Shown one piece after another: positions 15,868 through 52,872 of a stretch of DNA of 64,000 nt. Origin of the DNA: Thermococcus celer Vu 13 = JCM 8558 (lineage in GTDB: Archaea > Methanobacteriota_B > Thermococci > Thermococcales > Thermococcaceae); NCBI RefSeq assembly GCF_002214365.1, contig NZ_CP014854.1, positions 1,661,092 through 1,725,091 on the forward strand. Reading direction: 5' to 3'. The position numbers and the translations under genes were made by a program. Within the stretch, counting starts at the first letter, position 1. Every line of letters starts with the position of its first letter. Under the pieces are notes generated by a model, which saw only the letters and a list, made by a program, of their open reading frames with translations, had not been told where the DNA came from and made no database searches.

Positions 15868-15931
15868 GGTACCACCCCCTTAATCTTTCCGGCGGTTACT
15901 AAAAGAGGAAGACTTAAAAATTTGACGGAGG

Positions 15932-15988
15932 CTCAGGCCGTCGATCCCGGGCATCGCCTACCCCAAAGGCCAATCTCATCATCGCCGC
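15932..15988 (-). ncRNA. Candidate C/D box sRNA (2'-O-methylation guide)
   Basis: On the minus strand a perfect box C, ATGATGA (15976-15982), is followed about 40 bases later by box D, CTGA (15933-15936). A GGCGATG element between them could be a degenerate C' box; the D' box is not canonical. Upstream, TTTTAAGC (about 16007-16014) is a TATA-like box at the distance that would start transcription 2-6 bases before box C. Size and boxes fit archaeal C/D guides of 50-60 nt. The D guide would be the bases just before box D (CCGGGATCGACGGC). No target was searched. Confidence 0.45.
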
Positions 15989-16036
15989 CTCTCCTTGGAG
16001 AGAACGCTTAAAAGTCATCCGATCCTCATCGGCCAC

Positions 16037-16807: not shown

Positions 16808-17068
16808 TCAGAGTTCGTCCACGTCAACTCCCCTGATCTTATCGCTCACGTAACCTTCAAGTATCTCGATCCTCACTTCCCTCTCCTCGCCCGTGAGGTC
16901 GGCCATGAGCTTTACCCCCCTCGCGTAGTCCCACAGCCTCCTCTTCGCTTCCTCGGTAACGCTCTCGGCCATGACTATTATCTCCCTCTCCCCGGGCCTC
17001 TGACTTACGAACCCGATTACCTTCCCAGCGTCCTCCTCCGTGAAGGCTCCCCTCTTCTTGAAGAGCAT
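16808..17068 (-). CDS. Conserved small protein of unknown function
   Basis: 86 residues, soluble and acidic, with predicted alpha/beta character (strands around EIIVMAES and EVRIEILEGYV). No cysteine motif, signal or membrane segment. GGAGGTTGGGGG stands directly before the ATG. It is immediately upstream of queE with 9 bases between, so the two are probably co-transcribed, but this alone does not show a role in archaeosine synthesis. Not recognised. Confidence 0.7.
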   Translation of the reverse strand: MLFKKRGAFTEEDAGKVIGFVSQRPGEREIIVMAESVTEEAKRRLWDYARGVKLMADLTGEEREVRIEILEGYVSDKIRGVDVDEL

Positions 17069-32300: not shown

Positions 32301-33536
32301 TCAGGCCCCGAACTTCTCGCTCCGGTTCATGAGGTCCATCATCACCGGCACTATGTCGTGCCCCCTTATCCTGCCGAGGCCGCCGCGCATGCACTCGCGC
32401 TCGCCGAAAGTCTCCGTCCGGTCAGGCCTGACGCCGCCACCGGCTATCAGGAGCGGCACCGGGTCGCCGCTGTGGTTCATGACCTCGCAGGGCGTCGAGT
32501 GGTCGCCGGTTATGGCTATCACGACGTCCTCAAGGTCGAGGTTGTCAACTATGTAACCCACCATCCGGTCGGCCTTCTCTATCATCTCGGCCTTCAGCTT
32601 GGGTTTGTTGTCGTGACCGGCGGCGTCCGTCGGCTTGAAGTGCAGGAAGACGAAGTCGTAATCGTTGAGGAGCTCGACGACCTTCCTCGCCTTCGCCATC
32701 TCATCCGTGTCGTACTCGCCGGTCGCCCCTTCCGGCGTGTAGATATCGAAGCCTATCGCCCTTGCGACGCCCTTGACGAGGGAGACTGCGACGACGGCGG
32801 CCGCCTTCACCCTCCACTGCTCCGTGAACTTCATCGGGATGTCGGGGTAGGTTCCGGCCCCCCTTATCAGGAGGTAGTTGGCAGCGGGCTTGCCGGCCCT
32901 CCTCCGCGCCTCGTTTATCGGGTGTTTATCGAGGACCTCGTGCGCCTTCTCGACGAACTCTCCGAGGATCTCCGCCACGTGTCTGCTCTCCTCGTCCTCC
33001 CAGCCGAACTCGTGGGGTGGCTTTCCGGCCTCGTGCGGGTCGTTCTCGCCGACGCGGTAGCCCTTTGAGAGCCCCTTGAGGACCAGAACGGCCCTGTGAC
33101 CTGTGGCCCCTTTGAAGATGAACTCAACCGGGAGCTTCACCTCCTCCTGAACCGCCCTCGCGAGCTCGTGGGCCTCCTCCGTGCTTATCCTTCCCGCCCT
33201 CCTGTCGGTGATGACGCCGTTCTCGAGGGTGGCGAAGTTCACCCTGAAGGCCAGATCGTCCTCATCGAGGTCGAGGCCGACGCCGAGTGCCTCGAGGAAC
33301 CCCCTCCCGCGGTAGACCTTGTAGGGGTCGTAGCCGAAGATGCTGAGGTGCGCGGTGTCGCTTCCCGCCGGCTGTCCGGGCCTTATCGGGTCCTGCTGGC
33401 CCAGTATCCCGAGTTCAGCGAGTCTGTCCATGTTCGGCGTCTTCGCGTACTCGAGCGGGGTCTTTCCGCCGAGTTCCTTAACGGGCCTGTCCCCGAGGCC
33501 GTCGAGGATTATGAGAAGTCCCTTCCTCCGCTTCAC
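32301..33536 (-). CDS. apgM: 2,3-bisphosphoglycerate-independent phosphoglycerate mutase, archaeal type
   Basis: 411 residues from a GTG start at 33536, with GGTGATAAAC before it; this gives the length known for Pyrococcus ApgM. Alkaline-phosphatase superfamily features: N-terminal LLIILDGLGDRPV with metal ligand Asp, the GSDTAHLSIFGYDP nucleophile Ser region, and the C-terminal FLHFKPTDAAGHD and ITGDHSTP metal sites. It interconverts 3- and 2-phosphoglycerate in the modified Embden-Meyerhof pathway. Divergent from the HIT gene, with the promoters in 33537-33646. Confidence 0.95.
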   Translation of the reverse strand: MKRRKGLLIILDGLGDRPVKELGGKTPLEYAKTPNMDRLAELGILGQQDPIRPGQPAGSDTAHLSIFGYDPYKVYRGRGFLEALGVGLDLDEDDLAFRVNFATLENGVITDRRAGRISTEEAHELARAVQEEVKLPVEFIFKGATGHRAVLVLKGLSKGYRVGENDPHEAGKPPHEFGWEDEESRHVAEILGEFVEKAHEVLDKHPINEARRRAGKPAANYLLIRGAGTYPDIPMKFTEQWRVKAAAVVAVSLVKGVARAIGFDIYTPEGATGEYDTDEMAKARKVVELLNDYDFVFLHFKPTDAAGHDNKPKLKAEMIEKADRMVGYIVDNLDLEDVVIAITGDHSTPCEVMNHSGDPVPLLIAGGGVRPDRTETFGERECMRGGLGRIRGHDIVPVMMDLMNRSEKFGA

Positions 33537-51990: not shown

Positions 51991-52872
51991 ATGCTGGGGA
52001 GTATTGCAACATCGGCAAGACAGTATTTTTCACTGGTTGGGACCGTCTCCCCAAGGTACCTTGCCCTGGCCTTTCTCACTTACTACGTGAGCGTCCTTCT
52101 CTACGGGATTCGATGGAAACTCGTTCTAAACGGTGTAGGCAGAGACGCTCCACTGGGGGAGCTCGTTAAGGCCATACTCGCCTCCATCTTCATAAACAAC
52201 GTCACCCCGATGAGCAGGAGCGGGGGGGAACTGCTCAGGATGGCGTGGGTGTCGAGAAGGGCCATGGTACCCACGGGGGTCTCGGCCGTCAGCATAGTCT
52301 ACGAGCGCATACTTGAGACGGTCCCCGTGTTCGTCCTTTTCCTTGCCGGGATGACCTACTTCTCGTCCGAGGAACCGATACCCTTTGTGCTCCTGGGGGT
52401 TACGGGCATATTCCTGATATGGGTTAAATGGGATTCCTTCGTCAGGCTCTCCCTCCACCTGTTCAAAGCCCCCGTAAGCCCCGAAGAGATCGAGAGGATA
52501 GCCTCCTTAAAGGACATGCACGGCCTCAACGTTGCCGCGATCATCCTCAGTTCGGTCGTCTGGCTCCTCGACGTCCTCCGGTTGAAGCTCATCACCCTCG
52601 CCTTTGGGCTCAACCTTGCCTGGAGCTTTATAGCGGTCATCTCAATAGCCAACCTCTTCTTTGGCCTCCTCGCCTTTACCCCGGGGGGCGTGGGAATAAT
52701 CGAAGGCGGGCTCATCGGAACGCTCACGTACTTCGGTATCCCCACCGCCCTCGCGGTCTCGATAACCCTACTGGAACGCTTTGTATCGTACGTAGTCAGC
52801 AGCCTGGTGGGACTGGTGGTGCTCCTGACGTCCGGAGGGGTTGAAATATGGAAAGCCTTAAAATCGCAATAG
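51991..52872 (+). CDS. UPF0104/lysylphosphatidylglycerol synthase TM-like membrane protein
   Basis: 293 residues with about seven transmembrane helices. The family signature NNVTPMSRSGGELLRMAWV (about 70-88) and the C-terminal TPGGVGIIEGGLIGTLTYFG (about 229-248) are clear. The family is flippase-like and transfers or translocates lipid-linked groups. Its end overlaps the glycosyltransferase gene by 25 bases, which in turn overlaps a deacetylase gene, so it probably handles a glycolipid made by those enzymes. TATA-like GTTATAAAA at about 51951-51959. Confidence 0.87.
   Translation: MLGSIATSARQYFSLVGTVSPRYLALAFLTYYVSVLLYGIRWKLVLNGVGRDAPLGELVKAILASIFINNVTPMSRSGGELLRMAWVSRRAMVPTGVSAVSIVYERILETVPVFVLFLAGMTYFSSEEPIPFVLLGVTGIFLIWVKWDSFVRLSLHLFKAPVSPEEIERIASLKDMHGLNVAAIILSSVVWLLDVLRLKLITLAFGLNLAWSFIAVISIANLFFGLLAFTPGGVGIIEGGLIGTLTYFGIPTALAVSITLLERFVSYVVSSLVGLVVLLTSGGVEIWKALKSQ

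Follow-up and report, generated by a model that had tools for sequence, protein, structure and literature searches.

The spacer between queE and a RuvB-like gene of Thermococcus celer, which lies in the 64,000-nucleotide stretch of DNA analyzed here (the window), had been proposed to encode an unannotated C/D box guide RNA driven by its own promoter. This raises the question of whether a real gene resides at this locus and, if so, what its product might do. The box C, box D and TATA-like element named in the original prediction are all present on the minus strand, and the features of the locus can be laid out as follows:

16007..16014, minus strand: TATA-like element of the small RNA (TTTTAAGC); a TTTTTAA-like motif lies there in most Thermococcus
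15930..15986, minus strand: small RNA core, GGC...GCC, 57 nt; conserved block orthologous to Tko-sR33/ncRNA01
15976..15982, minus strand: box C (ATGATGA), from sequence and conservation
15965..15975, minus strand: first (D') guide GATTGGCCTTT, complementary to positions 902-912 of the organism's own 23S rRNA (AAAGGCCAATC)
15961..15964, minus strand: position of box D', with GGGG in place of CTGA; near-invariant across the family
15949..15963, minus strand: candidate internal hairpin GGGUA (15963-15959) / UGCCC (15953-15949), from RNAalifold and pair counts; the interval includes the degenerate C' (CGATGCC)
15937..15948, minus strand: second (D) guide region, differing between lineages; no significant rRNA or tRNA target
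15933..15936, minus strand: box D (CTGA), the same in all aligned orthologues
15924, minus strand: equivalent of the end of the T. kodakarensis circles, which comprise the core plus 6 nt (published junction 1053772-1053834)
15913..15923, minus strand: separate TATA-like element, AAATTTTTAAG, of the downstream RuvB-like (TIP49) gene

The boxes alone are weak evidence, because about 0.3 pairs of the form RTGATGA...CTGA at C/D-like spacing are expected on both strands of 64 kb of first-order Markov sequence and three are seen; with an upstream TATA-like element added, about zero are expected and two are seen. The two additional pairs in the window, at 52547-52595 and 32301-32345 (both minus strand), have no Rfam hit.

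Conservation of the small RNA gene in Thermococcaceae

A search of the family's genomes with this interval delineated a 57-nt block (15930-15986) sharply bounded by GGC...GCC and set between diverging spacers, identity being 89-96% for the majority of Thermococcus and 84-90% for the majority of matches in other genera. In each of the family's six genera the gene is conserved to nearly every base, and a clear copy is found in all but one of 74 high-quality family genomes. A sequence model (R1) derived from 28 different orthologues recovers it with E < 1e-8 in 89 of the 94 family genomes, nearly always as a single copy. Four of the five genomes lacking a match at this level are incomplete (G033, G052, G070 and G082, with a listed completeness of 74-82%). 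In the fifth, the complete Thermococcus genome G022, the end of queE abuts the RuvB-like gene's promoter directly, and the small RNA and its TATA element are cleanly absent (L140 954/955). Elsewhere in the class, 21 genomes of other families gave nothing better than chance-level matches to the same model (E 0.03 or worse), and a plasmid collection yielded no match. Judged from these alignments, it is conservation, and not the boxes alone, that is decisive for a real gene.

Within Thermococcus the consensus reads GGCGATGATGA[G/C]ATTGGCCTTTGGGGT...GATGCCCGGGATCGACGGCCTGAGCC. Box C and box D persist in the orthologues, as expected of a genuine C/D-type RNA under the original prediction, with box C being ATGATGA in most Thermococcus and ATGATGT in most members of the other genera. 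The terminal stem beside the boxes (GGC/GCC) is likewise present, with 96% of cells paired. The first guide, the GGGG and a GATGCCC element are near-constant, and the stretch preceding box D occurs in at least five lineage forms. In the organism's own genome the model also produces a weak second match (G000 C1:877360-877395, minus strand; 18 bits, E 0.004), which may represent a further C/D-type RNA that has the box C end in common with this one.

The published orthologue and the genomic neighborhood

The T. kodakarensis orthologue maps to 1053772-1053828, inside an RNA that was published as Tko-sR33 by Jäger 2014 (PMC4247193) and has the alias ncRNA01 (1053772-1053834), a name outside the sR (C/D) names of the same study, in Liu 2022 (PMC9014305). 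Its first base is exactly the published 5' junction. In the latter study it accounts for 1,267,983 small-RNA reads and 68 circular reads, versus 3 in a ligase (Rnl) knock-out, and its transcription start is mapped at 1053770 (PMC9014305). The published data on the orthologue therefore establish a discrete, abundant and circular small RNA. The mapped start lies 2 nt before the RNA core, and the TATA motif begins 28 nt before the RNA in T. kodakarensis and at an equal distance in T. celer. Together, the mapped start, abundant reads and circles of the orthologue and the matching TATA spacing support the predicted C/D-type small RNA and its separate promoter. As to the coordinates of the published T. 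kodakarensis loci, 17 of 18 further ones display C/D-like box sets where listed, the remaining one being masked (N), and the 23S rRNA is at the position given by Liu et al. 2022. The T. celer gene shares with Tko-sR33/ncRNA01 a near-identical sequence, the location in the queE-RuvBL spacer and the promoter spacing; it differs in a few core bases and in the upstream spacer, and expression is known from the T. kodakarensis side. What began as a bare prediction is accordingly a located and conserved gene, expressed according to the data on its orthologue.

The description as unannotated is true of Rfam 15, which gives no hit at gathering level: the best scores are 18.2 (snoPyro_CD), 18 (sR44) and 13 bits (sR1) against a cut-off of 45 bits, and the orthologues add a single sR44 hit at a loose threshold (22 bits, below the cut-off). 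It does not hold for the literature; the conserved family is missing from Rfam 15 but is already described, and is hence not new. Querying the literature with the sequence of the RNA retrieved no paper.

The small RNA is flanked downstream by the RuvB-like (TIP49) protein gene (RuvBL) and upstream by that of a QueE-like radical SAM protein. A connection with snoRNP assembly by way of the RuvBL neighbor, which the original prediction already allowed to be coincidental, is not supported. The adjacency varies within the family: many Thermococcus genomes have RuvBL about 2 kb off, and in the five other genera it went undetected next to the small RNA (mostly within flanks of about 300 bases), so that the link is best read as coincidence. 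The usual neighbor is queE, which adjoins the small RNA in four of these five genera; in the fifth, g3, to which genomes of Pyrococcus size belong, no adjacent queE was detected (flanks mostly of about 300 bases). Just upstream of queE lies an 86-aa ORF (16808-17068, minus strand) that matches no Pfam or NCBIfam model.

The location between these genes could also suggest a cis-acting kink-turn element in the 3' end of queE or the leader of RuvBL rather than a free small RNA, and k-turns in leaders have been discussed for T. kodakarensis (PMC4247193). However, RuvBL has its own TATA-like element downstream of the RNA, which places the small RNA outside the RuvBL leader; this element, AAATTTTTAAG, is retained before RuvBL in genomes that have the small RNA about 2 kb off or not at all, and the RNA stays in place where RuvBL is elsewhere. 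With the orthologue existing as an abundant, separately initiated and circularized RNA of about 63 nt, the published reads largely refute a cis-acting element, which we regard as extremely improbable.

Complementarity of the guides to rRNA

The first guide, GATTGGCCTTT, forms 11 Watson-Crick pairs with 23S 902-912 (context GGGGTGAAAGGCCAATCGAGG), exceeding the at least nine pairs sought in a guide, and its exact complement occurs once among the 16S, 23S and 44 tRNAs of the T. celer genome. When shuffled guides were compared against the 16S, 23S and tRNAs, only 13 of 20000 matched as well (P ~0.0007), which puts the match on a par with the top canonical guides of T. kodakarensis when these are tested alike. 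In canonical sRNAs of that species the interval from C to D' mostly holds a guide of 11-13 nt, and it is this place that GATTGGCCTTT occupies. In many Thermococcus the first guide base is C, leaving 10 pairs (34/20,000 shuffles as good), and two genomes carry ATTGACC in the guide, resulting in one mismatch. As the 23S target is almost invariant, covariation between guide and rRNA is unable to test the pairing. Since one part of the RNA matches 23S exactly, it probably contributes to ribosome modification or folding. We take the 902-912 stretch to be helix 35a because it resembles that part of E. coli 23S. H35/H35a is a reported hotspot of archaeal rRNA methylation (PMC4644070).

The rRNA complementarity expected of a guide RNA is thus perfect, but it belongs to the D' guide and not, as originally envisaged, to the stretch upstream of box D, which varies and for which no rRNA or tRNA target reaches significance (P 0.18 for T. 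celer, 0.71 for T. kodakarensis). That the guide next to box D nevertheless sets the functional target, for example 16S 7-16 or 23S 96-110, instead of H35a, appears very unlikely: imperfect complementarities of 10-15 bases do exist, but none beats shuffled guides, the region takes at least five forms among lineages with shifting spacing to box D, and the published sR15 is a better match to 16S 4-14. Pairing with the 16S 5' end (7-16, 17-26) was likewise rejected, being not significant at a site that sR15 explains better.

Degenerate internal boxes and possible roles

The original prediction missed that the internal boxes are non-canonical, and the RNA is not a canonical C/D sRNA in this respect. 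The D' position is occupied by GGGG, with AGGG or GGGA as occasional variants, and C' by NGATGCC, so that the first guide is kept beside degenerate boxes and the variable guide lies beside good ones. CTGA at D' is absent from all 28 distinct sequences, whereas a CTGA/CCGA-type box occupies this place in the canonical sRNAs of T. kodakarensis. The small RNA hence lacks the canonical D' (CUGA) and C' (RUGAUGA) boxes of an internal k-loop, a motif described as essential in archaea (PMC8413462). In length, GGC...GCC ends, box C, box D, an 11-12 nt first guide and rRNA complementarity it resembles the archaeal dual-guide C/D box sRNAs (Rfam sR1, sR44, snoPyro_CD), from which it differs in having no canonical D'/C', an unconserved second guide and scores far below the Rfam cut-offs. 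Good terminal C/D and degenerate internal C'/D' boxes are also seen in eukaryotic C/D snoRNAs with non-canonical C'/D', whose internal site is described as failing in most cases to bind the k-turn protein (PMC8413462), although the T. celer RNA is archaeal and short.

RNAalifold pairs GGGUA with UGCCC across the degenerate region, with 97% of cells paired. The changes in this hairpin affect two pairs, are one-sided and mostly still allow pairing (U-G to C-G once, A-U to G-U four times), and double compensatory changes are absent among the aligned orthologues; as nothing varies on both sides, the hairpin is possible only.

We consider it probable that the RNA, as the orthologue of Tko-sR33/ncRNA01, is a short, promoter-driven C/D-type particle whose first guide acts on 23S helix 35a. 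Its ends would form the terminal stem and a box C/box D kink-turn binding L7Ae, Nop5 and fibrillarin, and the conserved first guide would base-pair in the cell with 23S 902-912. By the standard reading, the +5 rule, the particle would methylate the rRNA nucleotide opposite the fifth guide base before D'; this would be G905 or G906, according to the choice of GGGU or GGGG as D'. The existence of G022, a complete genome without the gene though its 23S target is unchanged, argues against this scenario. Also speaking against it are the degenerate D'/C' boxes, the placement of the conserved guide next to them, and the listing as ncRNA01 outside the sR names in Liu 2022.

On the available sequences methylation would be the most likely role, with a role in folding as a close rival. 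According to this less likely alternative, the C/D-type particle does not methylate the H35a site and instead helps the rRNA to fold, the first guide holding the 3' strand of helix 35a, GCCC(GGG) perhaps touching its 5' strand (CCCGGGC, 887-893), and the internal hairpin replacing the C'/D' k-loop. The degenerate D'/C' with their conserved GGGG...GATGCCC and possible GGGUA/UGCCC hairpin, and a possible second contact (7 bp) directly 5' to the 23S target, are consistent with this proposal, and chaperone roles have been proposed for archaeal C/D sRNAs (PMC4644070). However, the second contact is not significant (329/5000 shuffles reach it, P ~0.07) and is down to 4-6 bp in several lineages, with one matching and one contradicting change, and the hairpin is not backed by double compensatory changes. 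Tentatively, one might conceive of an archaeal C/D RNA that occurs throughout the family and does without the canonical C'/D' k-loop, being either asymmetric in the eukaryote-like manner or a non-methylating chaperone of helix 35a, with a possible internal hairpin in place of the k-loop and an adjoining guide unchanged across six genera.

An archaeal C/D RNA lacking the canonical internal box pair bears on whether archaea always need C'/D', and the published Tko-sR33/ncRNA01 gains a specific, testable target in 23S 902-912. Two other published circular RNAs of T. kodakarensis, ncRNA02 (L238) and the TK0058 circle (L240), have an imperfect C/D box pattern, and given these, atypical C/D RNAs may form a wider group in Thermococcus.
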